A stretch of 64,000 nt of DNA from an uncultured Methanobrevibacter sp. (GTDB lineage Archaea > Methanobacteriota > Methanobacteria > Methanobacteriales > Methanobacteriaceae): contig NZ_CADCJB010000003.1 of assembly GCF_902801725.1 (NCBI RefSeq), positions 1 through 64,000 of the forward strand, read 5' to 3'. Positions within the stretch are counted from its first letter, which is position 1. The number at the start of each line of letters is the position of its first letter. A program made the translations under genes and the position numbers. This document shows positions 12,245-33,869 of the stretch, piece by piece. The notes under the pieces were generated by a model that was not told where the DNA came from, ran no database searches, and was given only the letters and a program-made list of their open reading frames with translations.

Positions 12245-12865
12245 TCAAGGTATGTGGGATGTTACGAAATTGTAAGCATCTCTCACACCTGAAATAAATC
12301 CATTATATTCTGTGTTGTGAATATTGCTCATATCATCTTCAATACGGTCATCCACTTCCCTTAAGAAAGTTGAATTGTTGTAGTCATGTGATGTGAAATA
12401 ATGAACCTGTATTGCATAATTTGTGTCTTCTTTAGGGAAAACATAATTAACTCCAATATGGCTCCAAGTCACATTGTTGTTTCTTGAAGGATTTGAGAAA
12501 TATTGTTTTGATACTGGAACTCCGCTTGCAGTGGAATTTTCAGTTTTGAGAACTTGATAATCTCCTTTTTCCATATTTCTGAATTTGGCTTCCGAAATCG
12601 ATGTAATGTGATCTTCAGGCCAATCATCCCAATGGTCGATATAGACATATCTGTTTGTAATTGCATGTGGAGTTTTGGATTCGTTTGTTAAGTTTAATTC
12701 TTCAGTGCTGTTCCATGCTTGGGGCACAATGGTCACACTATGGTCAAAATCAATGGTTCTGTCTGTATTAACACTTAAAAAACTGTTTATTGCATTAATG
12801 TTGGTTGCAAAGAAAATAATGATTATTATAAGTACGACTCCACGAATTATATCTCCTCGCCTCAT
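12245..12865 (-). CDS. Small membrane-anchored extracytoplasmic protein
   Basis: A 206-residue protein with one N-terminal hydrophobic segment (GVVLIIIIIFFATNINAI) and an about 175-residue outer domain containing several Asn-X-Ser/Thr sites. It starts at ATG behind a strong AGGAGGTC and overlaps the upstream glycosyltransferase gene by four bases, so the two are translationally coupled. It is the last gene of the histidine kinase block and may be an accessory component of the polymer synthase encoded before it. No family recognised. Confidence 0.75.
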   Translation of the reverse strand: MRRGDIIRGVVLIIIIIFFATNINAINSFLSVNTDRTIDFDHSVTIVPQAWNSTEELNLTNESKTPHAITNRYVYIDHWDDWPEDHITSISEAKFRNMEKGDYQVLKTENSTASGVPVSKQYFSNPSRNNNVTWSHIGVNYVFPKEDTNYAIQVHYFTSHDYNNSTFLREVDDRIEDDMSNIHNTEYNGFISGVRDAYNFVTSHIP

Positions 12866-14613
12866 TCTTTTTGACCTCCTGTATGTTCGGTTTTAGACCA
12901 TTTTCTTTCTTTTCTTGTAAGCATTGTCATCATTGTCATGAAGAATAATGGTATCAAGTGGAAACAGTAAATATAATATTTTACAAGGTCTTTTATGTAT
13001 TCCAGAATTGTAGGTTTATCTCTTGAAAGAGCAAGTAAAATTCCAGGGAAAAATGCAATCATGGATAATACTCCAACAATGAACGGAGCTTCCATTCTAA
13101 TAATGGTTGGGCCATGGAAAATGAACCATGAAATTGCATTGACTATTGTGACAACAAATCCGAAGAAGATTAATAAGTTAAAACTATAAAAAGAAATGTG
13201 TTCGATAATATGGAATTTCTTTGAGATAGATATTTTTGACCTTAGAATCTGGGGTAAATAAACGAATAAAGTTTCAAAGTTACCTATAGCCCATCTGATT
13301 CTTTGTCTGAAGAATGCTCTCCATGATGTAACTGCTTCCTGATATACTGCACAGTCTCGGGCATAACGTATTTTTCCACCATTAAGAATAATTTTTATTG
13401 CAAGGTTCAAATCTTCAGTAACTGCAAAACCGTCCCAGCGACCGGAGTCTATGATTGCTTGTTTTTTTACAAATTGCCCATTTCCACCTAAAAATCCTGT
13501 GAAGTTAAAATTATCCTTTGCAATTAATGTATTTCCAAAACTTGCGAATTCTACATGTTGCATACGGGCTAAAAAGTTTTCATTTTTGTTCCACATTTTA
13601 ACTCTTGACTGAACTCCTTCAATGCCTTCTCCATTTAGATATTGGACGATTGTCATGAGATAATCTGTACTGATTTGTGTATCCGCATCAAATACTCCGA
13701 TAATTTCTCCTTTGGATAATGTTAAAGCATCGTTTAAAACAAAACCTTTACCTTTTCCGGATCGTGGCGGGTGTCTAGTAACAATTTTAAGTTCAGGAAT
13801 TTCCTTTTTTAAGCCGGATAATATTTCTCCGGTACTGTCTGTAGATCCGTCATTTACGACAATCACTTCAAAGTTGGATTCTCCATTTTTGGTATATTCT
13901 GATTCACAAACACTTCTGACTGTTGATTCAATAGTGTATTCTTCGTTGTGCGCCGGAATAAAAATGCTTATAAAAGGAAGGTCATCCTCTTCGTATGGGG
14001 TGACTGGTTTTTGTTTTTTTATGCTGACAATAGAGTTAAGGAGCATAGCTGATGTTGGAATTATAAGTACCCATTGAAGCCATGTTGCATTTCTACTTAA
14101 AATAGCTATGATGATTAATGCGATACAAAGAATCAAAAGAAAACTTGAGTCTGATTTTTCAATTAAAAGTTCTGTATTTTTTTCTTCTATTTTATGCTGG
14201 GCTGTTTGAACGCTTAATTTATTTTGTTCATGTTTTTTAAGGGAAACGGCCATTGCTCTTTGCAGTTCATCCTCTTCAAAAGGCTTAAGCAGATAGTTGT
14301 AGGGATTACTCATTAGTAATTTATCGATAGTGTTGTCAAAAAGAGCTCCTACAATAATAATGACTGGAACATCAAATATTTCCAAATCAGTTGCCAGTTC
14401 CAGCAAATCTAATCCTTGTATTTCAGTATCCAGAAATATCAAATGAGGTGATAAATTGTCTATCTTTTCGAAAATTTCATCTTTTTGTGAAGCTGATCCG
14501 ACATACTCATAATTGTAATCTTCAACATATTTCTCTATCAAAGATAACATTATCTCTTCAGAGCCTATGGCAAATATTTTTGGCCGACCTTTAATTAGTT
14601 GTAATTCCGTCAT
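12862..14613 (-). CDS. Receiver domain fused to processive family 2 glycosyltransferase
   Basis: A 583-residue fusion. Residues about 10-125 form a response-regulator receiver fold: the acceptor Asp lies in LIFLDTEIQG and the conserved Lys in LLKPFEEDEL, but the paired acidic residues normally at the end of strand 1 are replaced (FAIGSEE) and the switch Thr/Ser is Ala (VGALF). Two membrane segments follow near residues 155-200. The GT-A domain then has IPAHNEEYTI, VVNDGSTDSTG, GVFDADTQIS, the acid in TEDLNLA and the QRIRW signature of processive synthases. Three or four C-terminal membrane helices complete a cellulose/hyaluronan-synthase-like topology. The sugar and polymer are unknown. Phosphorylation could gate polymer synthesis. 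Confidence 0.88.
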   Translation of the reverse strand: MTELQLIKGRPKIFAIGSEEIMLSLIEKYVEDYNYEYVGSASQKDEIFEKIDNLSPHLIFLDTEIQGLDLLELATDLEIFDVPVIIIVGALFDNTIDKLLMSNPYNYLLKPFEEDELQRAMAVSLKKHEQNKLSVQTAQHKIEEKNTELLIEKSDSSFLLILCIALIIIAILSRNATWLQWVLIIPTSAMLLNSIVSIKKQKPVTPYEEDDLPFISIFIPAHNEEYTIESTVRSVCESEYTKNGESNFEVIVVNDGSTDSTGEILSGLKKEIPELKIVTRHPPRSGKGKGFVLNDALTLSKGEIIGVFDADTQISTDYLMTIVQYLNGEGIEGVQSRVKMWNKNENFLARMQHVEFASFGNTLIAKDNFNFTGFLGGNGQFVKKQAIIDSGRWDGFAVTEDLNLAIKIILNGGKIRYARDCAVYQEAVTSWRAFFRQRIRWAIGNFETLFVYLPQILRSKISISKKFHIIEHISFYSFNLLIFFGFVVTIVNAISWFIFHGPTIIRMEAPFIVGVLSMIAFFPGILLALSRDKPTILEYIKDLVKYYIYCFHLIPLFFMTMMTMLTRKERKWSKTEHTGGQKE

Positions 14614-15116: not shown

Positions 15117-16985
15117 TTATCCTTCAATTGTATGGTCCATATATATTGGGAATGTTAACTTGTATCCTGTTCCGTTTTCATGTTGGAACAGTTCGATATG
15201 GCCGTCCAATTGCTTTGTGAGATTTTTGATGATTTCACATCCGAGATTTTTGGTGATTTTGTCAGGATCTTCGATTCCAACACCATTGTCCTGAAGTATG
15301 ACTTCTGCAGTTTCAGTATCAATTTTTCTTATTTTCTTAGTTATTTTCTTGTTAGGTTTGCTTTTATCAGGGAATGCATGTTTAATTGCATTCATTGTCA
15401 ATTCATCTATAACCAATAATAATGGAGTGATTACTTCAATTGATAATACCAGATCTTCATCAACTTCTGATTCAAACTCAATACCATCTCTCAATCCAAT
15501 CAGGCTTCTTAATTGGATGTCTTGGTCTTCAATATATTCTTTCAGGTTAATGTTTTTAAAATCGGTAGTATTGTAGGTTTTTTCGTGAAGAATTGCAAGA
15601 GATGATAATCTGGACTGCATATGGTCAATGATTATATTAGGTTTGTTTCTATAAGCTCTTTTTTCAAGGTTCAGGAAACTGTTAAGTACCTGTAGGTTGT
15701 TTTTAACCCTATGGTGAACTTCTTTAATCAATATTTTTTGATGTTCGTTAGCTTCCATCAATTCCAGCTGTTTAGTTCTTTCTTCAGTAACATCTGTTAG
15801 GAAACCGATACTGTGTGTGTCGGAACCAAATTCAAATCTTTCAATGTAAATTTCACATATCTTTTGGTTATTTTCATTTCCTTTAACATTGTAAGTGAAT
15901 GTTTCATCAAGTTCATTGATTTGTCCGTCAATTAGTCTGAGAATATTATTTATCACATCCTCTTCCACAATGTTTTGAATAATAGCACGTGAATGATGAT
16001 ACTCTTCAGGAGAATCTTCAATGAGATGATAAAAACCTTGTGAGAATTCGTATTGCTTTGTATTCAACGGTTCAATAAGTAATGCTAATTTTTTATTGTT
16101 TTTAAATCCTTTAAGCAAGAAATCAACAGGTCTTGTCATTTGTCTTGTTGAATCAGTACTCACGTCTTTTATTAAACCGTAACGACTTATAAGGTATCCG
16201 TCTTCATTAAACTTGGAATAAAGATTAATTTCAACATATTTCAAAACGCCGTCATCTGTTCTTATTCTGATGACGCTTTCGTAGTTGCTTCTTCCGGAAT
16301 CCATTTCCTTTAGGATTTTTTCAAGCAACGGCTTGTCTTCAGGTATAACCAGGTCAAATACAATGTTGTAATATTCGTCGTTTGCTTCTATTCCACGATT
16401 GATGATGTTATATATACCTTGAGTCCAGGAGTAACGGTCATTGATTTTATAATAGCTTCCGGTCTGTGAGAAATATTCGATTAAATTTGCCTTTTCATTA
16501 TTTTCCTCATTGGAGACATGTAAGTTTGTTTCACGATTGTCCCTGTGGTCTGAAATTAGAATTAATTTGTCCATATCCCAAACAATCTTAACGTTTGAGA
16601 ATCGAGCTAATTTTTCATGGAAGTGATAGTAAAATCTCATTTTTTTAGTTTTATGGGTTTTATAAACTTCCTGAAAAGGTTCTTTTAAAATGTCATAAAA
16701 ACCTGGAGATGTTTTACTAAGTAAACGTCCTGCAACATCGCTTTGTTTAATGTCTCCCCTTGCAAGAGCACTTAAACCTAATCTGTGTATGATAAAGTCC
16801 TCTCCGTTGTTGTATGGTACGAAGATGTCCAAATCATTGTCAAGTTGATTTAATGTATTTTCAAAAGGTGTATAGAACATCTCAAATTCTTGGGGAACCT
16901 GCTGATATAGTTCGCTTTCTGAAATGTCATAGATACTAATCTCTTCGGTATCCTCCAATTTCCGGTATGTTTTTTCAATTCTCAT
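15117..16985 (-). CDS. Cytoplasmic PAS-containing HisKA_2 histidine kinase (kinase 1)
   Basis: A 622-residue soluble kinase without membrane segments. Residues about 1-150 form a conserved N-terminal sensory module. A PAS domain (YFSQTGSYYKINDRYSW to SRYGLIKDV) covers about 190-305, and a second PAS-like unit ending in HSIGFLTDV covers about 310-420. The HisKA_2 phospho-acceptor box VHHRVKNNLQ follows near 440, then an ATPase domain with N-box ELTMNAIKHAF and G1 box LQDNGVGIEDPD. I chose the ATG behind GGAGGGTGAG, which aligns with the start of kinase 2. It overlaps the end of kinase 2 by 11 bases, indicating coupled translation. Confidence 0.92.
   Translation of the reverse strand: MRIEKTYRKLEDTEEISIYDISESELYQQVPQEFEMFYTPFENTLNQLDNDLDIFVPYNNGEDFIIHRLGLSALARGDIKQSDVAGRLLSKTSPGFYDILKEPFQEVYKTHKTKKMRFYYHFHEKLARFSNVKIVWDMDKLILISDHRDNRETNLHVSNEENNEKANLIEYFSQTGSYYKINDRYSWTQGIYNIINRGIEANDEYYNIVFDLVIPEDKPLLEKILKEMDSGRSNYESVIRIRTDDGVLKYVEINLYSKFNEDGYLISRYGLIKDVSTDSTRQMTRPVDFLLKGFKNNKKLALLIEPLNTKQYEFSQGFYHLIEDSPEEYHHSRAIIQNIVEEDVINNILRLIDGQINELDETFTYNVKGNENNQKICEIYIERFEFGSDTHSIGFLTDVTEERTKQLELMEANEHQKILIKEVHHRVKNNLQVLNSFLNLEKRAYRNKPNIIIDHMQSRLSSLAILHEKTYNTTDFKNINLKEYIEDQDIQLRSLIGLRDGIEFESEVDEDLVLSIEVITPLLLVIDELTMNAIKHAFPDKSKPNKKITKKIRKIDTETAEVILQDNGVGIEDPDKITKNLGCEIIKNLTKQLDGHIELFQHENGTGYKLTFPIYMDHTIEG
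15662..15707. repeat. Copy 1 of a 46-base identical run shared by the two kinase genes
   Basis: Read by eye, this segment is identical to 17556-17601. It encodes the region just behind the phospho-acceptor histidine on the minus strand. Flanking sequence is similar but diverges at third positions. Confidence 0.8.
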
Positions 16986-18885
16986 TCTTCTCACCCTCCC
17001 AAAGTTCGCGATGGTATTCAACGCTGTGTTCAAAGTTCACTGGGAAAATTATTCTAAATCCAGTTCCAACTTTGCAGTCTAAAATTTCAAGTTCTCCGTT
17101 AATCTGTTTTGTTAGATTGTTGATTATTTCCCAACCAAGATTATGGTTAGTCAATGCGTCAGGGTCCTTAAGTCCAACTCCATTGTCCCTTAATATTAAT
17201 TCGCAGATATACTCATTAATAAAGTCAATTTTCTTGGAAATTGTTTTATTGGTCATGTCAGGGTCTGGAAATGCATGTTTGATTGCATTCATTGTTAACT
17301 CGTCAACTATTAAAAGCAATGGTGTTATCACGTCTATAGACAAATGAATTTTAGGGTCTACTTCGGAAGTGAAATTAATGTTTTTTGCCCTGAATAGCAT
17401 GTGCAATGTTTCATCTTGATCTTTCATGTAATCTTCAAGATTGATGTTGATAAAATCTTCAGTATTGTATGTTTTTTCGTGAAGTAATGCAAGGGAGGAC
17501 AATCGTGCTTGCATATTATCCAATATGCGGTTTGGATTGTCTCCATATTCTCTTCTTTCAAGGTTCAGGAAACTGTTAAGTACCTGTAGGTTGTTTTTAA
17601 CTCTGTGATGAACCTCTTTAATCAATATGTTTTTGGTTGCATTTGATTTTATTAATTCCTGTTGTTTTTTGCGTGAAAGTGTGATGTCAGTTAAAAATCC
17701 TATGCTATGATCCTGATTACCATATTTAAAACGTTCAATGAATAATTCGCATATTTTACAATTGTCCATATCTCCATTTACTTTATATGTAAATACGCAG
17801 TTAATTTCATTAATTTCACCATCAATTAATTTTGTAATTTCGTTTCTAACCTCTTCTTCAATGATGTTATCAATAATGTCTATTTTGTGTATGTACTCGT
17901 TTTTCGGTATCTCAATCATTTTATAGAACCCTTCGCTAAATTCATATCTTTTGCTTAGTGGCTCTACAAGCAATGATAGCTTCGAATTATGATTAAATCC
18001 GTTCAGCATGAAATCAACAGGTCTGGTCATGTGCTTATTTGAATCGACACTGATGTCTTTAAATAATCCATAATGGCTTATTTCTTCTCCGTTTTCATCA
18101 AATTTGGAGTAAAGATATGTGTCTAAATACTTAATACTTCCTCCAGGTGTTTTTATACGAATGATATTCTCGTATGAATCAGTTTCGGGGCTCATGGTTT
18201 TCAGCAATTCTTCAACCAGAGGCTTGTCTTCAGGAATCACCAAATCAAAAATGATGTTGTAAAAGGAGTCATTAACCTCTTTTGAACGGTTAATGATATT
18301 ATAAATTCCCGGAGTCCAGGCGTATTCATTATTGGTTTTGTAATAACTTCCTGTCTGTGAGAAGTATTCAATTAATGTAGCTTTATTTTCATCTTCTTCC
18401 TGCTGCTGTTCCTCTACACTTTTATTTTCAGTTTCTGCTTTTTTCAAATCAGAAATTACATAAATTTTTCCTTCATCCCGTAGAATATTGATATTTGCCA
18501 GTGTTGCAATCTTATCGCTAATATAATAAAATATTCTCATCGGCTTTGTCTCTCCAGTTTCAAAGACTTCTTCAAATATGTCTTTAAAGATATCATAGTA
18601 AAACGGAGAACATTCACTAAATAATCTTCCTTCAACTTCATCTGGTCTGATATTTAATCTTCCCAGCATATTCCAGCCTATCCTTTCGACAAGATAATCA
18701 TCACTGCCTTCGATAGGCGTGAAAACATTGATGTCTGAAGGGACGTGTCTCATAATATTGTTAAAACGAACATTGTCTATTTTTTTAAATTGCTTGACCT
18801 TGTGGAACATTTTGTTTTTATCAATATTATAAACCCGTATCTCCTCTATGTTTTCCAATTTTCTGTATTTTTTTTCAACATGCAT
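16975..18885 (-). CDS. Cytoplasmic PAS-containing HisKA_2 histidine kinase (kinase 2)
   Basis: A 636-residue paralogue of the adjacent kinase with the same order of parts: an N-terminal sensory module opening MHVEKKYRKLENIEEI, a PAS domain around YFSQTGSYYKTNNEY, a second PAS-like unit, the phospho-acceptor box VHHRVKNNLQ and an ATPase domain with ELTMNAIKHAF and LRDNGVGLKDPD. It lacks membrane segments. It differs by a charged glutamine/glutamate insert near residue 155. AAGGTAAT precedes the start. It is the first gene of the minus-strand signalling operon, and the 245 bases upstream hold its promoter and that of purA. Confidence 0.92.
   Translation of the reverse strand: MHVEKKYRKLENIEEIRVYNIDKNKMFHKVKQFKKIDNVRFNNIMRHVPSDINVFTPIEGSDDYLVERIGWNMLGRLNIRPDEVEGRLFSECSPFYYDIFKDIFEEVFETGETKPMRIFYYISDKIATLANINILRDEGKIYVISDLKKAETENKSVEEQQQEEDENKATLIEYFSQTGSYYKTNNEYAWTPGIYNIINRSKEVNDSFYNIIFDLVIPEDKPLVEELLKTMSPETDSYENIIRIKTPGGSIKYLDTYLYSKFDENGEEISHYGLFKDISVDSNKHMTRPVDFMLNGFNHNSKLSLLVEPLSKRYEFSEGFYKMIEIPKNEYIHKIDIIDNIIEEEVRNEITKLIDGEINEINCVFTYKVNGDMDNCKICELFIERFKYGNQDHSIGFLTDITLSRKKQQELIKSNATKNILIKEVHHRVKNNLQVLNSFLNLERREYGDNPNRILDNMQARLSSLALLHEKTYNTEDFININLEDYMKDQDETLHMLFRAKNINFTSEVDPKIHLSIDVITPLLLIVDELTMNAIKHAFPDPDMTNKTISKKIDFINEYICELILRDNGVGLKDPDALTNHNLGWEIINNLTKQINGELEILDCKVGTGFRIIFPVNFEHSVEYHRELWEGEKNEN
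17556..17601. repeat. Copy 2 of a 46-base identical run shared by the two kinase genes
   Basis: Direct repeat of 15662-15707, in the same orientation and at the equivalent codons of the second kinase gene. It is compatible with tandem duplication followed by purifying selection or gene conversion. Confidence 0.8.
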
Positions 18886-20762: not shown

Positions 20763-20851
20763 TTTTATGGGCTGAGGGATTATATTTTTGAATTTGCCTT
20801 CTGTATGATTTTTCCTGATATTTTTAAAAATATTTATATAACATAAGTTAT

Positions 20852-20885
20852 ATAACAATAGTTATCATAATATAACTATTGTGAT
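20852..20885. promoter_or_regulatory. Tandem palindromic operator before the amidotransferase operon
   Basis: Two copies of an ATAAC-N4-GTTAT-type palindrome, ATAACAATAGTTAT at 20852-20865 and ATAACTATTGTGAT at 20872-20885, are spaced 20 bases centre to centre. Together they also form an 11-bp inverted repeat around CATAAT. A TATA box (TTTATATA, 20833-20840) lies just upstream, so a bound protein would cover the transcription start. This suggests repression. The same 14-mer recurs at 27586, with a variant at 28335. Confidence 0.6.
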
Positions 20886-20908
20886 AATCAATAATGGGAG
20901 GATAATAT

Positions 20909-21706
20909 ATGTGTGAAATTTTTTGTTTTAATTCAAATACGCCAAAACAAGTTAATGAATGTTTAGAATGTTTTTATAATCACTCTGAGGAACATCCGCA
21001 CGGATGGGGATTGGCTAATATGCACTCTAATGAATTTGTTATAGATAAAGAGCCTATAAAAGCAACATGTAGCCAACACCTTAAAAATATATTGTCCCAT
21101 CCTGTTGTTGGGAAAAATGTATTCGCTCATATTAGATTGGCTACCATGGGTGAAATTATATCTCCCAATTGTCATCCGTTTACGGAAGCTGATGATAATA
21201 ACAGATCCTGGATGTTAATCCATAACGGTACTATCTTTGATTATCCACCACTTAATCAATATGCTGAGAAGGGGGATGGAAGTACTGATTCCGAGCGAAT
21301 ACTTTTATATATAATTGATGAAGTCAATCAATTTGAAAAGGAAAATGGGAGATTATCAACTATCAAGGAACGTTTCAATTTATTATACGAAATTGTATCT
21401 GATTTATCTAAAAATAATAAACTTAATCTGATGATTTATGACGGTGATTTAACTTACATTCACTCCAACATGAGGGACTCCCTGTATTATCTTAAAAGTG
21501 ATGAAAGCTTTTTAGTCGCTTCCAATCCTCTGACGGATGATGAAAATTGGATGCCTGTTGAATTGAATAAGCTATTTGGTTTGATTGATGGAAATATCAT
21601 TTTCGAAAGTGAAGAACATGACAATGAATTCATATTAACTCCAGAACATGAAAAAATTATAGAAGAATTCTTAAAATCAATAAATCGGGATGATATTAAT
21701 GATTAA
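20909..21706 (+). CDS. Class II glutamine amidotransferase
   Basis: A 265-residue Ntn-type amidotransferase. After Met removal the catalytic Cys is residue 2 (MCEIFCF). HPHGWGLANM, AHIRLATMGE, NCHPF and the HNGTIFDY loop are the conserved glutamine-site elements. It belongs to the YafJ/EgtC-like single-domain group rather than to a biosynthetic synthase, so it may hydrolyse or transfer the gamma-glutamyl amide of a small molecule. It is followed, with an 8-base overlap, by a GCS2-type ligase and then a GshA-type ligase, which supports a role in gamma-glutamyl thiol metabolism. GGGAGGATAAT precedes the ATG. Confidence 0.88.
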   Translation: MCEIFCFNSNTPKQVNECLECFYNHSEEHPHGWGLANMHSNEFVIDKEPIKATCSQHLKNILSHPVVGKNVFAHIRLATMGEIISPNCHPFTEADDNNRSWMLIHNGTIFDYPPLNQYAEKGDGSTDSERILLYIIDEVNQFEKENGRLSTIKERFNLLYEIVSDLSKNNKLNLMIYDGDLTYIHSNMRDSLYYLKSDESFLVASNPLTDDENWMPVELNKLFGLIDGNIIFESEEHDNEFILTPEHEKIIEEFLKSINRDDIND

Positions 21707-23099
21707 TGATGAAGTAATAAAAAATAGGTTGTTTGAGGAGTTTATAAAGCCGACAAGTCAAAAGAAGAACTATGTTGGTATAGAAATTGAAATTCCGATT
21801 ATCAATCTCGACAAAAAGGCTGTTGATTTTAATGTAGTTCACAAAATCACTGACAGATTTCATAAGCATTTCAATGATTTTGAAAGAGACGGAATAGATT
21901 ATGAAGGGAATGTGTTTTCACTGAAAAATCCTAAAACTGACGATATTGTTTGTTATGATTGCTCATATAATAATATAGAATTTGCTATGGGTCGTGAAAC
22001 TGAGTTGTTTACTATCAATAAACGTTTTTGCGAGTATTATGAATTTACAAAAGAGTCTTTTGAGGAATTTAATCATACTTTAACTGGAATGGGAATCAAT
22101 CCACACAGAAAGTACAATAATCATATTCCAATTCCTTCAGAGAGATATCTGATGCTTTATCATCATCTAAAATCTTTCAAAAACTATGATGACATTCAAT
22201 TTCCATTTCATGACTACCCTGAATACGGAATGTTTTCGTCAGCTTCCCAGGTTCAATTAGACGTTTATAGGGATAATCTGGTAAAAACCATAAATGTATT
22301 TTCCAAAATCGAACCGATTAAAGCATTATTATTTTCTAATTCTGTCCTGTTCGAAGAAAATAAACATTTGACATGCTTTAGGGACATTTTATGGGAGTAC
22401 TCAACTCATGGTGTAAATCCTCATAACATTGGGATGTATGATGTGGATTTCAAGAATATCAAAGACCTTCAGGCATATCTTGAATCCCTAAATATGTACT
22501 GCGTAATGCGCGACGGAGCATATATCAGTTTTCCGTCAATCAATATTCTAGATTATTTCGGTCAGGAAAATATTCGCGGAGATGTCTATTGCAATGGAGA
22601 ATACAAAAATGTTGACATAAATCCTTCAATTGATGATATTGAATATTTAAGACCGTTCAAATTCATCAATTTGACATTCCGGGGGACCGTTGAATTTAGA
22701 AGTGTATGCACCCAACCTATCAGGGATTCAATGTCAGTTGCGGCATTTCATTTGGGCCTTAAGGATAAGCTTGATGAACTGAGCAATCTGATTTCAGATG
22801 ATGAGGTTATTTATCATAAGGGATATACTGCAAGCGAACTTAGAAAACTATTCATTCAGGATGAACTTCCTGCATTTGTTGATAAAAAGGATTTATGTAG
22901 ATTATGCAAAGATGTTGTGGATTTGGCATCAAGCGGACTTGAAGAAAGAGGAATCGGTGAGGAAATATTTTTAAAACCGTTGTATGCCCGTATTAAAAAA
23001 CATACAAATCCAGGAAAGGACCTGATTGATGCATTAAATCAAAATATAAACCTGGAAAAACTTATTGAAGACTATGGCAAACCTTGCAAGGTCTATTGA
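21699..23099 (+). CDS. Glutamate-cysteine ligase family protein (GCS2 type)
   Basis: A 466-residue ATP-grasp-related ligase of the GCS2 (plant/actinobacterial EgtA-like) superfamily. The metal and ATP site residues lie in YVGIEIEIPI near the N-terminus, GRETELFTI follows, then the substrate segment FSSASQVQLDVY around residue 185-195 and RGTVEFRSVCTQPI near 330. The likely reaction is ATP-dependent joining of glutamate through its side chain to an amine such as cysteine. The ATG at 21699 is chosen because CGGGATGAT precedes it; an ATG nine bases upstream is the alternative. Overlaps the amidotransferase by 8 bases. Confidence 0.82.
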   Translation: MINDEVIKNRLFEEFIKPTSQKKNYVGIEIEIPIINLDKKAVDFNVVHKITDRFHKHFNDFERDGIDYEGNVFSLKNPKTDDIVCYDCSYNNIEFAMGRETELFTINKRFCEYYEFTKESFEEFNHTLTGMGINPHRKYNNHIPIPSERYLMLYHHLKSFKNYDDIQFPFHDYPEYGMFSSASQVQLDVYRDNLVKTINVFSKIEPIKALLFSNSVLFEENKHLTCFRDILWEYSTHGVNPHNIGMYDVDFKNIKDLQAYLESLNMYCVMRDGAYISFPSINILDYFGQENIRGDVYCNGEYKNVDINPSIDDIEYLRPFKFINLTFRGTVEFRSVCTQPIRDSMSVAAFHLGLKDKLDELSNLISDDEVIYHKGYTASELRKLFIQDELPAFVDKKDLCRLCKDVVDLASSGLEERGIGEEIFLKPLYARIKKHTNPGKDLIDALNQNINLEKLIEDYGKPCKVY

Positions 23100-23108
23100 G
23101 GTGATTAA

Positions 23109-24497
23109 ATGAATTTATCATATTTATCTAAATTATCTCCTGATGACATATTGTCAGGATTATTTGGGATAGAATGGGAGTCGTTAAGAGCTAAAGGCGA
23201 TGGCAAATTATCTTTAACCCCTCATCCTGAAGTATTTGGAGATAAACTAACTAATCCATTGGTAACCACCGACTTTTCTGAAAGTCAAATAGAAATAATA
23301 ACTCCAACATTCGACACAATCGACGATGCCTTTGGCGCGTTTTCACTGATATCCGATTTGGTAAACGTGTCTCTTCCTGATGATGAATATCTTTGGTTTC
23401 AATCAATTCCATGTATTTTGCCTTATTGGGATCAAATTCCAATAGCTCAATACTCAGAAGAAGGCAAATCATCACAAAAATATCGTGAAGACTTGGCTAA
23501 GAAATATGGGGTTAAAAAACAGATGATTTCTGGAGTCCACTTTAACTTTTCATTTTCAGACAGTCTGTTGAAAAAGTTATATGAATTTGAAAATGCAGAT
23601 TTGAGCTTTAGGGAGTTTAAGGACAATGTTTATTTGAAAATTGCGAGAAACTATCTTAGATATTGCTGGCTAATTATTTATTTGACAGGTTGTTCGATAG
23701 GTTCTCATAAAACATTTTCCAATGATTGCATTCATTTGATGGATGCTAAGGATAACTATGGTAGTTATTATTCGACCAGAGGCCCTTCATTTAGAAACGC
23801 TTCTTGCGGATATAAAAATTTAAAAGAGTTATATCCATCTTATGCCTCTGTTGATGGCTTTGTAGAGGATATCAACAATTTTATAGAAAGTGGAGATTTG
23901 TCTGAAGCCAAGGAGCTGTACACTCAAATCAGGCTCAAACCAAAAAATCCTAAAGATGTATTGAATTCTTTAAAAAAAGATGGAATTGATTATATTGAAA
24001 TAAGAACTTTGGATATTAATCCATTTTATAAATGTGGTCTTGTAAAACGTGATATGAAGTTTTTACATTTATTTTTAATATATCTCCTCATTAAAGGAGA
24101 ATCTGACTATGTTGGCTGGCAGAGAGAAGCCAAAATAAATGAAGAAAACACTGCCGAATGTGCTTATGTTGAATCAATGAGATTAATTAGGGACGGTCAG
24201 AAAGTAACTATTGAAAGTTGGGCAAATGAAATTATAAACGAGATGTATATAATGTGTGATGTATTGGGAATTGATGACGACCACACTTTAAATTTAATGC
24301 TTAATCGTATTTTAAATCCTGATTTGACCTATGGAAAAAGGCTTTTAAAATTAATTAGGGAAAATGGTTATATCAATACTCATATTGCTCTGTCTAAAAA
24401 TAATAAGCAGACCAGTATCAGCAGTCTGAAAAACATTGATTTGGCTGAGTGTGACAACGTTAAGAAATACGCAAGCATTGCATTGATTGGAAAATGA
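23109..24497 (+). CDS. gshA: Gamma-glutamylcysteine ligase, GshA type
   Basis: A 462-residue protein that follows the bacterial type-1 glutamate-cysteine ligase along its length. It has GIEWESLR (metal site), LTPHPEVFGDKL, TTDFSESQIEIITP, IPIAQYSEEGKSSQKYR, ISGVHFNFSF, STRGPSFRNASCGY and DYIEIRTLDINPF. These match the glutamate, ATP and cysteine binding elements of E. coli GshA, though the protein is about 55 residues shorter. It should make gamma-glutamylcysteine, the first step of glutathione-like thiols. It lies 9 bases after the GCS2-type gene, behind TTGAGGTGATTAA. A GshA of bacterial type is unexpected in a methanogen and suggests acquisition from bacteria. Confidence 0.88.
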   Translation: MNLSYLSKLSPDDILSGLFGIEWESLRAKGDGKLSLTPHPEVFGDKLTNPLVTTDFSESQIEIITPTFDTIDDAFGAFSLISDLVNVSLPDDEYLWFQSIPCILPYWDQIPIAQYSEEGKSSQKYREDLAKKYGVKKQMISGVHFNFSFSDSLLKKLYEFENADLSFREFKDNVYLKIARNYLRYCWLIIYLTGCSIGSHKTFSNDCIHLMDAKDNYGSYYSTRGPSFRNASCGYKNLKELYPSYASVDGFVEDINNFIESGDLSEAKELYTQIRLKPKNPKDVLNSLKKDGIDYIEIRTLDINPFYKCGLVKRDMKFLHLFLIYLLIKGESDYVGWQREAKINEENTAECAYVESMRLIRDGQKVTIESWANEIINEMYIMCDVLGIDDDHTLNLMLNRILNPDLTYGKRLLKLIRENGYINTHIALSKNNKQTSISSLKNIDLAECDNVKKYASIALIGK

Positions 24498-24532
24498 ACT
24501 GCTTTTTCTAATTTGAATTGGAGGATGATAAA

Positions 24533-25363
24533 TTGGAATTTTTAAGACAAACTGATGTTATTCAATGGAAGGATGGTGAGTATAGAACAATTAAGGAAAA
24601 CAGTGTGGATGATGAATATACATATCTGTTCATTGATTACTTGCCTCCCCGTAAATTTTCAACATATCCAAAGGATTTGGAGGATTTTGCAGTAGGATAC
24701 TGTCTTGGAGAGGGATTGATAAAAAATTACTCTGATATTGAATCTATCAAGCTGGACGGAACAAATGTTCTGGTTTCCACAAACTTAAATCATGATCCTG
24801 AAGAGGACTTGGAACAGGAAGGCATAGTTCAGGAGAGAAAGGGAAACTGTGAACATGCTTGTGTATGCAGATTATTGGAGTATCAGGGAGTAAATTCTGA
24901 TAATGCAGGAGGAATAAGATCAGAATTAAAAACAATAGAATCCAATAATTCAGATTTAAAAATCAATGCGACTCAAATTATTAAAGATATCAAACATTTG
25001 ACAGATGAGGCGAAAATTTGGCAGAAAACGGCTGGGGTTCATGTTGCTCAGCTAAAATTTGAAGACCAAATAATCATTCGTGAAGATGTCAGCCGTCATG
25101 TTGCAGTTGATAAGGTGATAGGGGCTGCTTCAAGGGAGGGCTATGATTTTTCTAAATGTTACATTTCATATAGTGGAAGAATGCCTGCTGATATGTTAAT
25201 TAAAGTGATACGGGTTGGAATCCCAATCATTATTTCAAATGCTGCCCCTGCTTCATCAGGTATTGACGTTGCGCGTGCAGGCAATATCACAATGATTGGT
25301 TTTGTAAGGGATAGTAGATTTACAATTTACACTGCTCCAGAGCGTGTAGATTTACAAAAGTAA
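24533..25363 (+). CDS. fdhD: FdhD-type formate dehydrogenase sulfurtransferase
   Basis: A 276-residue FdhD-family protein. FdhD moves sulfur from a cysteine desulfurase to the Mo/W-pterin of formate dehydrogenase. Recognisable parts are LPPRKFSTYP, DFAVGYCLGEG, AGVHVAQL, RHVAVDKVIGAA, SYSGRMPADM and the C-terminal APASSGIDVA...GFVRDSRFTIY. The sulfur-carrying loop is unusual: NCEHACVC (CX3CXC) in place of the common CX2C. The TTG at 24533 behind GGAGGATGATAAA is chosen over an in-frame TTG at 24518. It lies 35 bases after gshA, so it may share its transcript. Methanobrevibacter grows on formate, which fits. Confidence 0.9.
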   Translation: MEFLRQTDVIQWKDGEYRTIKENSVDDEYTYLFIDYLPPRKFSTYPKDLEDFAVGYCLGEGLIKNYSDIESIKLDGTNVLVSTNLNHDPEEDLEQEGIVQERKGNCEHACVCRLLEYQGVNSDNAGGIRSELKTIESNNSDLKINATQIIKDIKHLTDEAKIWQKTAGVHVAQLKFEDQIIIREDVSRHVAVDKVIGAASREGYDFSKCYISYSGRMPADMLIKVIRVGIPIIISNAAPASSGIDVARAGNITMIGFVRDSRFTIYTAPERVDLQK

Positions 25364-25379
25364 TCCTTTTCTTTTTTTC
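25356..25379 (+). terminator. Probable terminator of the gshA-fdhD unit
   Basis: A weak 5-bp hairpin (AAAAG-TAATC-CTTTT) overlapping the fdhD stop runs into CTTTTTTTC. Confidence 0.45.
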
Positions 25380-25492
25380 ACATTTCTGCTTTTTTCATAT
25401 GGTCGCACTTCAATAATTAAAAAATATAAGTTAAACTAATTTGTTATTAGTAATATTTGGATTGTAATCGCTTGCCACATCAAAATATAAAT

Positions 25493-25696
25493 ATGTTTTT
25501 CAAAGTTGCAGCAATACTTTTCGGACAATTTCATCAGATATTTGGAATATTCGGTTTGGAACAGGGTAGAAAAGAAGGTGAAAATAAAAATCTCCGGGAG
25601 AATATTATTTCTTTGTTGGAATTTGGAATGAGTGATGAGGAAATTTCAAAAGCTTTAAAAATTGATATTAAATTTGTTAAAAGTATAGTGAATTAA
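25493..25696 (+). CDS. Small protein or remnant with an Rpn/PD-(D/E)XK-transposase-like C-terminus
   Basis: 67 residues from the ATG at 25493; a TTG further upstream in frame has no support. The second half (GRKEGENKNLRENIISLLEFGMSDE, then EEISKALKIDIKFV) resembles the C-terminal helix-turn-helix tail of Rpn/PD-(D/E)XK family transposase-like proteins, which typically end this way after a nuclease domain that is absent here. There is no clear ribosome binding site. It may be the leftover end of such a gene or a small DNA-binding protein. Confidence 0.35.
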   Translation: MFFKVAAILFGQFHQIFGIFGLEQGRKEGENKNLRENIISLLEFGMSDEEISKALKIDIKFVKSIVN

Positions 25697-25718
25697 ATAG
25701 ATGCTTTTCGCATCTATT
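25696..25718. terminator. Shared hairpin terminator between convergent genes
   Basis: AATAGATGC-TTTTC-GCATCTATT forms a perfect 9-bp stem with a 5-base loop. It touches the stop codons of the small gene on plus and the ThiF-like gene on minus, so it can end both transcripts. Confidence 0.65.
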
Positions 25719-26472
25719 AAATTTCATCTAAACTGAATGAGCTCAAATCGAGCAAGTCAAATGTTAAAATTTTTGGAGCAACAGTAACTTTTCCAACTCC
25801 AGTTATTATTTTATAAGCTTCAAATGCTTCAAGACATCCAATTAAGTTTGGTGTTGGTCCAATAACCGGCGGAACTCCTGATGTCACATTTTTCAATGCA
25901 TCAATGACATCATCATCTAGTTTTTTACTTAATGATGGTAGATTAAACATTTCTTCATATGTTTTTTCGCTGTTTGGTAGGAATACGGTAATCTGCCCCA
26001 TTGTTCCATGAATTGCTCCATGAATGTATGGAATTCCAATTTCTTTTGCTTTTCTAGAAACGATAACTCTTGTCAGGACATTATCAAGTGCGTCGATTAC
26101 AATATCTGAGTCACCAATGACCTTGTCAATGTTAGTTTGATCGATATGTTCATTAAAAATGGTTGTTTTTACATAGGGATTTATTAATCTGACTTTTTCA
26201 GCTGCAACACTGCTTTTTTCAAGACCTAAATCGGCAATTGAAGCTAATGTCTGTCTGTTTAAATTGGACAAATCGAATGCATCTTTATCAACTAAAACCA
26301 GTTCTCCGATTCCCATTCTTGCAAGCATTTCAATGGTTTCTCCACCAATTCCTCCACAGCCAATAACTGTTACTTTTGCATCTTTAAATCTTTCCTGCTC
26401 ACTTCTTGTAACTATACTCATTTGACGGGAAGCTATTTCCCAGTATCCATCACCTATGTATCTTGTTGGCAT
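25717..26472 (-). CDS. ThiF/MoeB/HesA-family adenylyltransferase
   Basis: A 251-residue E1-like enzyme. The nucleotide site VIGCGGIGGETIEML and the downstream acidic and Arg elements (LVLVDKDAFDLSNLNRQ), then DALDN, are all present, so it should adenylate the C-terminus of a small ubiquitin-like sulfur carrier such as ThiS or MoaD. The CX2C zinc pairs of MoeB are missing and only two cysteines remain, one in the P-loop and one in LIGCLEAFEAY. It lies 8 bases after the LarE-like gene on the same strand, which points to a joint sulfur-transfer job. Confidence 0.88.
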   Translation of the reverse strand: MPTRYIGDGYWEIASRQMSIVTRSEQERFKDAKVTVIGCGGIGGETIEMLARMGIGELVLVDKDAFDLSNLNRQTLASIADLGLEKSSVAAEKVRLINPYVKTTIFNEHIDQTNIDKVIGDSDIVIDALDNVLTRVIVSRKAKEIGIPYIHGAIHGTMGQITVFLPNSEKTYEEMFNLPSLSKKLDDDVIDALKNVTSGVPPVIGPTPNLIGCLEAFEAYKIITGVGKVTVAPKILTFDLLDLSSFSLDEI

Positions 26473-26480
26473 TTTTTCAC

Positions 26481-27491
26481 CTAAATATTTCTTCTTAGTT
26501 TTTGCAATATTTCCATAAATGTATCTAGCGCTATTTCTTTTGTTTTTAAATTGTTTCCTTCTATTAATCCAGTTTCAAAAATAGTAATGTTGTCTAATAC
26601 TATTTTTTCATCGGTTATTGAATTGATCTTGCCAGTAATCTGTCTTGAAGTCTCTTCGAGATTGATGGTGAACGGAAGCTGATATGAAAATGAGCCCTCA
26701 TTATAATCAATATTAATGAACTCGTCATCATCAATTTGCGATAAATTTAATGCAATCTTTCTATAACCTTTGCCTTTTAATTCATCGTTGATTTGTCTGA
26801 ATTTGTCATTGGATAAAATTTCGTCAATGTCATCAACTTCAATAATACCAATTTCTCCAAAGTCTCTAACTTTCACTATTTTGCAGTCAGTAGTATCTAA
26901 AATATAGTCTTCTGATTGACTTATCCTTTCGATTTTTTCCTTATTTGTTTTGGTATTTGTAGGAATTCTTGTTGCAAGGCATGTAGTCGATTTTGAATAT
27001 GGGATGTTGTTTTTATCAAGATATTCATGAATTTCCTTGGATGTTAATTTTGCTTTAATCAGGGGTGTTTCAAACCTTTGTTTATAGGTAATCAGGATTC
27101 CTGGCCTGTCATTAACAAGATCACTAATGTTGTTTCCATCGCAGATATAATCAAAACCTTTTTTTAGGGCAGTACTCTTTATCTGTGAATACATCATGTC
27201 ACGGCAGGTATAACATCTGCTTGGAGAATTCTGAAGAAATTCCTGGTCTTCATAAAAATTAATATCGATAATCTCATGTTTTATTCCAAAAGAATCGCAC
27301 ATGCTTTTGGTGTGGCTGATAAAATCGGTTGGCATTAAGTGATTATCAATAGTAATAGCTATTGTGTCTTTTGCAACTTCTGAAGATAAATATGCCATTA
27401 ATGTTGAATCGGCACCACCTGAAAATCCGATGGCTACTTTTTTATCTTTTAAAAGACTTTTGACAATATTGATTTTATCTTCCAAGTTCAT
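26481..27491 (-). CDS. larE: LarE-like ATP-dependent sulfur transferase
   Basis: A 336-residue PP-loop ATPase of the LarE family. The P-loop is GFSGGADSTLMAYL, the second signature is SPSRCYTCRDMM, then DGNNISDLVNDRPG, and TTCLATRIP holds the cysteine that in LarE donates sulfur or binds a cluster. LarE converts carboxylates of a pyridinium cofactor to thiocarboxylates; whether this protein serves nickel-pincer cofactor synthesis or another sulfuration is open, since no LarB or LarC is in the window. The last about 75 residues are an extra C-terminal extension. AAGGGATAAT precedes the ATG. A palindromic operator lies about 95 bases upstream. Confidence 0.85.
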   Translation of the reverse strand: MNLEDKINIVKSLLKDKKVAIGFSGGADSTLMAYLSSEVAKDTIAITIDNHLMPTDFISHTKSMCDSFGIKHEIIDINFYEDQEFLQNSPSRCYTCRDMMYSQIKSTALKKGFDYICDGNNISDLVNDRPGILITYKQRFETPLIKAKLTSKEIHEYLDKNNIPYSKSTTCLATRIPTNTKTNKEKIERISQSEDYILDTTDCKIVKVRDFGEIGIIEVDDIDEILSNDKFRQINDELKGKGYRKIALNLSQIDDDEFINIDYNEGSFSYQLPFTINLEETSRQITGKINSITDEKIVLDNITIFETGLIEGNNLKTKEIALDTFMEILQKLRRNI

Positions 27492-27585
27492 ATTATCCCT
27501 TAATCAGTTAATGAGTTTTCTCATTAATATTATGTTTTATTATATATTTTAGATTTTGGAGTTGCCGCACTGGCAATCATGGAAT

Positions 27586-27599
27586 ATAACAATAGTTAT
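27586..27599. promoter_or_regulatory. Palindromic site upstream of the LarE-ThiF pair
   Basis: ATAACAATAGTTAT is identical to the site at 20852-20865. Reading on the minus strand, a TATA-like ATTTATA lies about 22 bases upstream (27621-27627), so the site could overlap the transcription start of the larE-thiF transcript. Confidence 0.55.
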
Positions 27600-27654
27600 T
27601 TTTTCCATAAATAAACATTGTATAAATTAATATTTAAATGTTTTGAAAATTCAA

Positions 27655-28269
27655 TTATTTTTGGGCAATTACAACTAAAATATAATCGTTTTCTTTTTTA
27701 AAGCTATTCACGCTACTAAAACCAGCATTCAATAGATATTTTTCAAGTTGGGCAGAAGTATAAACACTCATGCCCTCAACAGAAGCCAACCACTTTTCAT
27801 CATCAGGGTGGTTGCCGTCAGTTCCCTGAGCAATCATGAATTGTCCATTTGTTTTAATAATTCTTAAAACTTCTTTAAACGTATTTCCAATATCTGGCCA
27901 AAAGTATATTGTTTCAAATGCGGAAACCAAATCATAACTTTCATTTTCTATAGGCATATCGCTGACATCCGCTTGAATGATGCGGCATCTTCCTTTTTCA
28001 ACTGAACTCTTGTTTCTTTTTAGTGATTCAGCAACTGAAATTTCTGAATAATCAAGTCCATCGACATTTTTGTCGGTTAACTTGAGGAACTTCTCGATAT
28101 TTACTCCTCCTCCGCATCCAATATCAAGTATTTTATCGTTTTTTGTGATGGTGATGCATTGAAATGCAAATTCGGAAATTTCTTTGTGGTTCTCATTCAT
28201 GTTTTTGATGGTTTGAATACCTTCCTCGCCATGAGGTTTCATACATTGATCAATTTTTTTAGCTACCAT
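27655..28269 (-). CDS. Class I SAM-dependent methyltransferase
   Basis: A 204-residue methyltransferase with ILDIGCGGG (motif I), VDGLDYSE (motif II acid), IQADVSDMP and YDLVSAFETIYFWPDI (post-I and motif IV). It resembles UbiE/COQ5-type small-molecule methyltransferases; the substrate is not known. AAGGTTGAAACA precedes the ATG. It is divergent from the substrate-binding protein gene, and the shared 160-base region contains a palindromic site, so both may be controlled together. Confidence 0.88.
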   Translation of the reverse strand: MVAKKIDQCMKPHGEEGIQTIKNMNENHKEISEFAFQCITITKNDKILDIGCGGGVNIEKFLKLTDKNVDGLDYSEISVAESLKRNKSSVEKGRCRIIQADVSDMPIENESYDLVSAFETIYFWPDIGNTFKEVLRIIKTNGQFMIAQGTDGNHPDDEKWLASVEGMSVYTSAQLEKYLLNAGFSSVNSFKKENDYILVVIAQK

Positions 28270-28334
28270 TGTTTCAACCTTGTATAGTTAATGTTTATAT
28301 TGGATGAGTTATAAAATATGTTTAGGGATTCAAT

Positions 28335-28348
28335 ATAACAATTGTTAA
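28335..28348. promoter_or_regulatory. Palindromic site between divergent methyltransferase and SBP genes
   Basis: ATAACAATTGTTAA matches the ATAAC-N4-GTTAT palindrome of 20852 and 27586 in 12 of 14 positions. It lies between the two TATA-like boxes of the divergent genes, about 15-17 bases from each, which is suited to controlling both. Confidence 0.5.
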
Positions 28349-28430
28349 TATTCTTAAGTAATATATTTATAATATACTTATAATAATTAATAATTGTAAT
28401 AAATTTAAATTTATTAAACGGTGATTATGA

Positions 28431-29402
28431 ATGAATAAAAAAATAGCATTTGTTTTAGTGTTAGCACTTGCAGCATGTTTAGTTATGGGTGCAGCCAGTG
28501 CAGGTTTCTTCGATTTTTTAGGTGGAGGAAATGACACTGTAAAGATAGGATATTTACCTTCTGACCATGATGCTGCATTATTTGTAGCTGATAAGCAAGG
28601 TTTATATGAGAAAAAAGGAATTAAAACTGAACTTGTTCAGTTTAATAATGGTGGAGACTTAATGACTGCTATGGCTAGTGGTGAAGTCGATGTTGGATAT
28701 GTTGGAATCGCTCCGGTATTGTCTTCCGTTGCAAAAGGAGTTCCTGTAAAAGTTATTTCTTCTGCTCAAACTGAGGGTAGTGGAATTGTTGTAACTAAAG
28801 ATTCTGGAATTACTTCTGCAGCTGATTTAAAAGGCAAATCAATAGCAACTCCTGGTGAAGCTTCTATTCAATATGTTCTTCTTTCATATTACTTGGACAA
28901 AAACGGTTTATCTACTAAAGATTTAAACATTTCAGCAATGAAAGTTCCATCTATGAATGACGCTTTAAAAACCAAACAAATTGACGGTATTATTACTTTC
29001 CAACCTTATGTAAGTATCGCAGCAAATGATACCAATAATGTTGTTTTAGAAAACTCATCCGAAATTTTACCAAACCACCCATGTTGTGTGGTTGTTGCAT
29101 CTGACGACTTCATTAAAAACCATGAAAACGAAACTAAAGATATCATTGCAATTCATAAAAACGCAACTAATTTCATCAATGATAAAATTAAAGAGGGCAA
29201 TTCCTCTGAAGTTGTAAAACTCTTGCCTGAAGATATTGTTGCTAATTCTGATTTGGAAACTAATTCATTACAAAGTTTCCCATTCATTTCTGGTCTTAAT
29301 GATACCTTCAAAGCAGATGTGGATTCATTCCAAAATCTTGAAGTAAAAGTAGGTATTTTAAACAGTACTGTTTCAAAAGATAAATTGTACTGGCCGGCAT
29401 AG
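28431..29402 (+). CDS. NitT/TauT-family ABC substrate-binding protein
   Basis: A 323-residue secreted binding protein. The signal segment has basic MNKKIA, a hydrophobic core containing LAAC (a possible lipobox) and an ASA cleavage site. The mature part shows the SsuA/TauA/NMT1 pattern: KIGYLPSDHDAALFVADKQGLYEKKGI, TAMASGEVDVGYVGIAPVL, ADLKGKSIATPGEAS and IDGIITFQPYVSIA. Such proteins capture nitrate, sulfonates, taurine, thiamin precursors or similar small ligands. No permease or ATPase gene lies next to it, so it must share a transporter encoded elsewhere. GGTGATT precedes the ATG. The regulatory palindrome suggests co-regulation with the sulfur genes upstream. Confidence 0.85.
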   Translation: MNKKIAFVLVLALAACLVMGAASAGFFDFLGGGNDTVKIGYLPSDHDAALFVADKQGLYEKKGIKTELVQFNNGGDLMTAMASGEVDVGYVGIAPVLSSVAKGVPVKVISSAQTEGSGIVVTKDSGITSAADLKGKSIATPGEASIQYVLLSYYLDKNGLSTKDLNISAMKVPSMNDALKTKQIDGIITFQPYVSIAANDTNNVVLENSSEILPNHPCCVVVASDDFIKNHENETKDIIAIHKNATNFINDKIKEGNSSEVVKLLPEDIVANSDLETNSLQSFPFISGLNDTFKADVDSFQNLEVKVGILNSTVSKDKLYWPA

Positions 29403-32589: not shown

Positions 32590-32948
32590 TGGTTTCTCTC
32601 CTTTAAATTTTTGTTAACATTATAAACACTACATGACTTATAATGATAAATGATTAACAACTATTATAATTATAAATATCGTTATATTAATATTTAAATA
32701 TATTGTTTATTTAATTAGTTTTTAACCCATTTTAATCATTATGAAACTATTATTACTTTCTAAAATTGTTCAATACTTTTTTTTTAAAAATAACACATTT
32801 TAGATTTAAAAAAATCATGTTAATTTTTGCATGTAAAGTTCATGTTTCTTAAACTATATAATATAGGATAATTATAATTATATATAAATAATAAACTTTT
32901 GATATTATAATTTTTGAAATTATGATATATGATGACATGGGGAATTAT
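32590..32948. other. Divergent AT-rich promoter region, no gene
   Basis: 359 bases between the divergent acyl-CoA ligase and DUF2121 genes, very AT-rich. A TATA-like ATATATAAAT at about 32879-32888 fits the plus gene. TATA-like sequences around 32665-32680 on the minus strand fit the ligase gene. I see no RNA gene, repeat or short gene with a ribosome binding site. Confidence 0.5.
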
Positions 32949-33869
32949 ATGAGCTTAATTATTGCTTACATTGGAAAAAAAGGATGCGTAATGGCAGCAG
33001 ATAAAAGAAAAATTGGTTATTTCGGTGATAAGGAAAATTTGGAAAGGTTAGAAAAAGAATTGTATAGTGGTGAAATTAGCTCTGACGGTGAATTTAAAAG
33101 AAGAGCTGATGAATTGGGCATTTCTGTAAAAATTACTGATGATGCCAGTAAGCTAAAGATTGTTGGCAACTGTGTTAGGGGTGAAGTAAGCACAAAAGGA
33201 ACTTTTGAAACAAAACGCAGAAGAATTTACGGAACCACTGCAGGTTATCAATTGGTTGAATTATTGGGTTCAGAAGTAACTTCCAGAAAATCCGGTGAAG
33301 CGGGAATAGTAATTTTCGGTAACAATTTTGCTAAAAAAATGGCTGAAAATTTAATTAAAAGAAAATTGAAACCTTCATCCAGTTTAAAATCAAAAGGTGA
33401 AGCTTTTGAGGAAATTTTAAGAGAAGTTGCAGCTAAAACTCCTACAGTCGGTATTAACTGTGATGTTTTAAAGCAGGAACCTAATTTTGATAAATCACAA
33501 GCCCAAAGACACCTTAACATAACTATCGATAATGATGTTAAGGTATTGGCGAAATTCAGACAGACTTTAACCGAACAAATCGTTCAGCAAAGTATTGAAA
33601 TTGAAATGGCAAATAAAATTATCGATAAGGGCGATGTCGGAAAAGTTGTTTCAGTTGATGGCAACATTTTGTATGTCCAGTTAAATGAAAACATTCAGGC
33701 ATTGGATGGAAACTGGAAACAGCTTGCAGCGCCTGGTCAGAATGTCATAATGTTTACGCAAAGCGATGATGTCGAGATTGGGGATAAAGTCACTATTGAA
33801 AATGAGGATTTATGCCTTAAAAAGAATAATTCTCCTCTCAAATGTGACGTTATTTTATGTTCGTTATGA
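32949..33869 (+). CDS. DUF2121 family protein (proteasome-like fold)
   Basis: A 306-residue protein of a family restricted to methanogens. The N-terminal SLIIAYIGKKGCVMAADKRKIGYFG resembles the first strands of proteasome-type Ntn hydrolases, but the family's activity is unknown. A KRRRIYGTTAGYQLVELLG segment follows, and the last about 90 residues form a beta domain (GKVVSVDGNILYVQLNENIQ). I chose the ATG at 32949 preceded by GGGGAATT, not an in-frame upstream ATG. An MBL-fold gene follows 13 bases downstream in the same operon. Confidence 0.8.
   Translation: MSLIIAYIGKKGCVMAADKRKIGYFGDKENLERLEKELYSGEISSDGEFKRRADELGISVKITDDASKLKIVGNCVRGEVSTKGTFETKRRRIYGTTAGYQLVELLGSEVTSRKSGEAGIVIFGNNFAKKMAENLIKRKLKPSSSLKSKGEAFEEILREVAAKTPTVGINCDVLKQEPNFDKSQAQRHLNITIDNDVKVLAKFRQTLTEQIVQQSIEIEMANKIIDKGDVGKVVSVDGNILYVQLNENIQALDGNWKQLAAPGQNVIMFTQSDDVEIGDKVTIENEDLCLKKNNSPLKCDVILCSL

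Follow-up and report, generated by a model that had tools for sequence, protein, structure and literature searches.

The window analysed here, 64,000 nucleotides of contig 3 (NZ_CADCJB010000003.1) of the 2.16 Mb assembly of an uncultured Methanobrevibacter sp. (GCF_902801725.1; genome G000 in our comparisons), contains an island of eight genes for thiol and sulfur metabolism, which we read as a probable part of a sulfur/cysteine-responsive regulon marked by a shared operator. An earlier reading made from the letters alone (the sequence-only reading) had named these genes. By direct reading, all eight are intact open reading frames (ORFs) located between 20909 and 29402, and profile matches place them in the families proposed, with the GCS2-type assignment resting on the structural match to 2gwc:

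20909..21706, plus strand: GAT, a class II Ntn amidotransferase or gamma-glutamyl amidohydrolase-like protein (PF13230, 2.7e-31; GATase_4)
21690..23099, plus strand: GCS2-like ligase with the plant-type glutamate-cysteine ligase fold (Foldseek match to 2gwc; conserved motifs)
23109..24497, plus strand: GshA, a glutamate-cysteine ligase of the GshF N-terminal type, without a GshB domain (PF04262, 9.6e-89; PDB 3ln7, 2.3e-64)
24518..25363, plus strand: FdhD sulfurtransferase (TIGR00129, 198.5 bits, cut-off 140.9)
25717..26472, minus strand: ThiF/MoeB-like E1 adenylyltransferase (PF00899, 1.6e-58)
26481..27491, minus strand: LarE, an ATP-dependent sacrificial sulfur transferase (TIGR00268, 173.2 bits, cut-off 150)
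27655..28269, minus strand: S-adenosylmethionine-dependent methyltransferase (PF08241)
28431..29402, plus strand: SsuA/TauA-type substrate-binding protein, SBP (TIGR01728, 178 bits, cut-off 163.5)

Because the GAT and GCS2-like ORFs overlap by 17 bases and GshA and FdhD follow closely behind, the region 20909-25363 is likely one operon, of which FdhD is likely the last gene here. The ThiF and LarE genes are paired on the minus strand, those for the methyltransferase and SBP are divergent, and no permease or ATPase was seen beside SBP at this locus.

The sequence-only reading had also noticed one palindrome before three transcription units. The shared element is real, but it is not one long inverted repeat: a single 11-6-11 repeat was rejected in favour of a 14-bp operator, ATAACNNNNGTTAT, typically ATAACAATTGTTAT, which lies just downstream of the TATA box and can be present in tandem copies:

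20829..20838, plus strand: putative archaeal TATA box of the GAT operon, ATTTATATAA (direct reading; an AT-rich element followed by the operator recurs in most Methanobrevibacter relatives)
20838..20851, unstranded: operator copy 1, ATAACATAAGTTAT (exact ATAACNNNNGTTAT)
20852..20865, unstranded: operator copy 2, ATAACAATAGTTAT (position kept in relatives)
20872..20885, unstranded: operator copy 3, degenerate, ATAACTATTGTGAT (motif scan)
27586..27599, unstranded: operator of the LarE-ThiF unit, ATAACAATAGTTAT (present at LarE in 6/8 relatives)
28335..28348, unstranded: operator of SBP, perhaps shared with the methyltransferase, ATAACAATTGTTAA (identical in 7 SBP loci, at about -90 to -120)

Exact copies of ATAACNNNNGTTAT occur three times in the window against 0.09 expected, all three within the island, while a scan of the window alone allowing two mismatches returned four sites against 1.7 expected, which is not significant. 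As the TATA box lies at about 20829-20838, transcription is predicted to start near 20862, inside copy 2, and this suggests repression by occlusion. The regions upstream of GAT in relatives carry ATAACAATTGTTAT directly past the TATA box, often with ATAACAATTGTGAT as a second tandem copy, and the exact operator was found in 31 of 38 non-duplicate GAT upstream regions.

Placement of the operator was compared over 21 loci, which are related and hence not independent, with an expectation from mononucleotide shuffles of at most 0.05 for each gene set. The operator was found upstream of GAT (16/20), LarE (6/8), SBP (8/13), FdhD (6/10), ThiF (3/12) and the methyltransferase (1/8), and upstream of none of the 19 flanking DUF447, acyl-CoA synthetase and purA genes. 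FdhD bears it only when heading a unit (in relatives where FdhD is separate, its own operator lies at -18 to -24), and ThiF mostly when LarE is not upstream; the sites thus appear to move with transcription units through rearrangements. By these figures the methyltransferase is a weak member of the island.

Thirteen of the 17 exact sites in this genome are located in promoters, namely those of GAT (two), LarE (one), cysK-cysE (two), metY-nifS (three), a second gshA (gshA2, C10:43566-44948; one), rnc-metX (one), a pdxK-like pyridoxamine kinase gene (one), moaE (one) and a major facilitator superfamily transporter (one); of the remaining four, three fall inside ORFs or at the end of one, and the fourth is close to an adhesin-like ORF. 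In four further genomes (G039, G043, G037 and G019), sites with at most one mismatch, several chance-looking ones among them, precede cysK, metY-nifS, metX, moaE, pdxK, FeoB, FdhD, LarE, ThiF, ThiI or ThiS-like operons, nifS-nifU and a standalone gshA. In G019, which belongs to another genus, the targets are thiF, fdhD, larE, thiI, a ThiS-like gene, nifS-nifU, moaE and pdxK. This is strong comparative evidence that the operator marks a cysteine, methionine and sulfur-transfer regulon, and the co-regulation put forward in the sequence-only reading is borne out by an operator that is shared, conserved and present well beyond the island. That reading had further coupled a thiol to cofactor sulfuration by FdhD, LarE and ThiF; common control is supported, and the data extend to control and not to a common pathway. 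In genus g12, standalone gshA promoters (L216, L219 and L220) carry an operator variant shorter by one base, ATAACAATGTTAA.

The gene neighbourhood, whose loss in relatives would have spoken against the island, recurs. In a survey of 139 genomes of the family, the GCS2-like gene was present in 78, its nearest named relatives being from Methanobrevibacter, and the core of GAT, GCS2-like and GshA genes is kept across Methanobrevibacter and related genera. Of 21 long loci, 20 have GAT immediately upstream of the GCS2-like gene and 12 have GshA next in line; in almost every locus the GAT and GCS2-like genes either overlap or adjoin. In Methanobrevibacter, the FdhD, ThiF, LarE, methyltransferase and SBP genes remain linked in varying order, and many relatives have an SBP paralogue immediately upstream of GAT. 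Every genome with GAT also encodes GshA, the GCS2-like ligase or both. The pair counts (both, first only, second only, neither), which ignore phylogeny, were 76/5/2/56 for GAT and GCS2-like, 77/4/8/50 for GAT and GshA, and 72/6/13/48 for GCS2-like and GshA. Three genomes have GAT with GshA only and lack the GCS2-like gene (G007, G008 and G032), three have a GAT-GshA pair and a GCS2-like locus elsewhere (G018, G029 and G056), and in G109 GAT lies apart from the GCS2-like gene. The operator is also present at GAT-GshA pairs to which no GCS2-like gene is linked (L235, L236, L237 and L238). Since GAT pairs with either ligase alone, it can be considered a partner that the two ligases have in common, and cleavage of a product shared by them, such as gamma-Glu-Cys, is then favoured over channelling of ammonia to one of them.

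GAT has all the hallmarks of a class II Ntn amidotransferase (N-terminal Cys, Arg, the Asn-Gly oxyanion pair and Asp), and the corresponding residues C2, R76, N106-G107 and D127 are invariant in an alignment of ten sequences. Its model (mean predicted local distance difference test score, pLDDT, 86) is nearest to 1te5 and to EgtC 4zfk, while its score against the EgtC equivalog TIGR03442 (67.5 bits) falls below the cut-off of 218.65. The GCS2-like protein matches no Pfam family at E<=0.01 and reaches only 43.2 bits against the plant glutamate-cysteine ligase equivalog TIGR01436 (cut-off 463.15). Its AlphaFold model, built with 18 relatives (mean pLDDT 79, some active-site loops being of low confidence), resembles plant glutamate-cysteine ligase 2gwc in Foldseek (E about 1e-15, TM-scores 0.72/0.77), and the ligase-type motifs GIEIExP, DCSYNNxE, SASQVQLD and FRGTxEFRS are invariant in relatives. 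GshA scores 298 bits against PF04262 (cut-off 27) and matches the N-terminal ligase domain of GshAB; GshA proteins of this type without the glutathione-synthetase half are already known for Methanosphaera and Methanobrevibacter (PMC7278568). EgtD (PF10017) and the GshF-type ATP-grasp synthetase domain PF18419 were each found in none of six genomes, in searches that did not take in EgtB or other GshB families, and neither synthesis of glutathione by a GshF-type enzyme nor synthesis of ergothioneine is therefore expected, the latter in agreement with the sequence-only reading.

On the basis of gene identities, conservation, co-occurrence and operator placement, we propose, with a probability of about 0.6, that Methanobrevibacter and its relatives have a sulfur/cysteine-responsive regulon to which the island belongs and which includes a module for making and cleaving a gamma-glutamyl thiol. 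The palindrome ATAACNNNNGTTAT, in its best form ATAACAATTGTTAT, would be recognised by a DNA-binding protein, often as a tandem of two or three copies just past the TATA box. As to the direction of regulation and its signal, we infer that this protein is most likely a repressor, lifted at a shortage of cysteine or sulfide. Besides the thiol module, the regulon would cover the synthesis of cysteine and methionine, cysteine desulfurase and genes for sulfur transfer. In an ATP-driven reaction, GshA and the GCS2-like ligase would couple glutamate through its gamma-carboxyl group to an amine, the substrate being most simply cysteine and the product gamma-Glu-Cys, and GAT would cleave the gamma-glutamyl bond, so that cysteine could be stored, protected or exchanged and later recovered. 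Because GAT never occurs without a ligase and pairs with either alone, making and cleaving of gamma-glutamyl(cysteine) appears the likeliest chemistry of the module, and a gamma-glutamyl thiol is a plausible product.

Several observations weigh against this proposal. The operator pattern is not enriched in the genome (17 matches against 21 for a reversed-pattern control); the raw count was therefore dropped as evidence, and placement alone is informative. No operator was found in the 130 bp before GAT at five GCS2-like loci (L044-L046, L049 and L050), and the co-occurrence counts take no account of phylogeny. No regulator has been identified: a search for Rrf2 proteins (PF02082) gave no match above the cut-off in this genome, only weak ones. 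Matches above the cut-off in relatives were rejected as the methanogen regulator, being HrcA-type winged-helix proteins with CBS domains whose upstream regions lack an operator within one mismatch. In Methanosphaera-type loci GAT, with or without the GCS2-like gene, lies downstream of a glutathione peroxidase homologue and a flavodoxin-like gene, and such homologues were present in 9/9 genomes tested (unlinked in this one). This neighbourhood would speak for the thiol module, but since glutathione peroxidase homologues are often thioredoxin-dependent, the link is weak. Newton and Javor (1985), as cited in the literature survey PMC7278568, are reported to have found neither gamma-Glu-Cys nor glutathione in five unidentified methanogens. 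Our literature searches returned no description of such a cysteine/sulfur regulon in Methanobacteriaceae, nor of a thiol common to Clostridia and methanogens.

The same genes could instead degrade imported gamma-glutamyl peptides, such as glutathione or gamma-Glu-Cys in the gut, as a source of cysteine under sulfur starvation. GAT would then act like Dug3, a subunit of the complex that degrades glutathione in yeast, and the ligases would only balance pools. Control in common with cysteine synthesis, the SsuA-type binding proteins flanking the triad in relatives and the gut habitat would all fit, but one or two ATP-consuming ligases accompany GAT in all genomes that have it, no peptidase is linked and no ATP-binding cassette permease was seen beside the binding protein, and we regard this explanation as unlikely. 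Less likely again is a glutamine-dependent amide ligase, in which GAT would free ammonia and the GCS2-like protein would amidate a carboxylate, for example on gamma-Glu-Cys, to give an amidated thiol reminiscent of glutathione amide. The overlapping or abutting genes are consistent with it, as is the relation of the GCS2-like fold to glutamine synthetase; GAT, moreover, resembles the GlmS and PurF glutaminase domains roughly as well as it does EgtC. A dedicated two-protein enzyme is nevertheless weakened by the six genomes listed above whose GAT-GshA pair has no GCS2-like gene linked to it and by the separate GAT of G109, which would not be predicted for a pair dedicated to ammonia channelling. 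It is highly improbable that descent alone accounts for the gene order and that the palindromes are due to chance or belong to promoters in general, with no regulator in common. The genome is very AT-rich and the raw motif count is not enriched, but the flanking genes lack the operator, and sites stay at unit heads through rearrangements, above the shuffle expectation. Beyond the island, moreover, genes for cysteine, methionine and sulfur transfer recur as targets in five genomes, which belong to two genera.

Returning to the make-and-cleave module, a scan of GTDB genomes recovered GCS2-like proteins of 51-60% identity from gut Clostridia, where their genes lie in a GshA-GAT-GCS2 operon, several loci being situated beside an Rrf2 regulator gene, cysK (cysteine synthase) or a gene for a Cys/Met pyridoxal phosphate enzyme. 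In the GCS2-like tree the methanogen and Bacillota groups are separate except for two entries, and a single old transfer between them is the simplest reading. One of the two (L172), named as uncultured Bacillales, nests among methanogens, shares its gene order with a contig from Methanobacteriaceae (L175) and is probably misbinned; the other (L050) is on a long branch and its position is unsure. Tentatively, and with the odds against it, gut methanogens and gut Clostridia may share by old transfer a GshA/GCS2-like/GAT route to an undescribed low-molecular-weight gamma-glutamyl thiol, which in methanogens would stand under a new archaeal sulfur regulator binding ATAACNNNNGTTAT.

The low-molecular-weight thiols of gut methanogens and of many gut Clostridia are poorly known, and the supply of cysteine and sulfide bears on methanogen growth in the rumen and the human gut. 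With a defined operator and target list, the regulator could be found by pull-down (operator probe ATATAACAATTGTTATAT) and the response tested by RNA-seq, while a named three-gene module makes the thiol accessible to liquid chromatography-mass spectrometry. In one relative (G039, L087:2478-2940), an operator-like site lies 57 bp upstream of an HxlR-family regulator gene; although a single case, this is a possible lead to the regulator.

Other features were observed in the window. A frame of 79 amino acids between FdhD and ThiF (25457-25696), with a helix-turn-helix-like C-terminal stretch, resembles a gene remnant. A response-regulator receiver fused to a family 2 glycosyltransferase (12862-14613) lies near a HisKA_2 histidine kinase (15117-17033), and 32922-33869 encodes a homologue of connectase (MJ0548-like), a methanogen family of protein-ligating enzymes.

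When compared with known systems, the island resembles mycobacterial ergothioneine synthesis (EgtA/EgtC) in encoding a ligase of the plant-type/GCS2 fold together with a gamma-glutamate-removing Ntn amidohydrolase; it differs in the lack of EgtD in the six genomes searched, in the low score of GAT as EgtC and in the addition of a second type of ligase, GshA. With the GshF/GshA route to gamma-glutamylcysteine and glutathione it has in common the ligase domain of GshAB, while PF18419 is missing from the six genomes searched and GshA is linked to GAT and the GCS2-like gene. As in the cysteine regulon of Firmicutes under CymR (Rrf2), a single operator covers cysteine and sulfur genes, and the clostridial triad lies in several loci beside an Rrf2 gene; the methanogen operator appears to be different, in a genome without an Rrf2 protein over the cut-off. 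Like the SurR regulon of Thermococcales, it would represent sulfur-responsive transcriptional control in archaea, but the operator differs from that of SurR (GTTn3AAC), and where SurR targets sulfur respiration, the targets here are those of cysteine assimilation.

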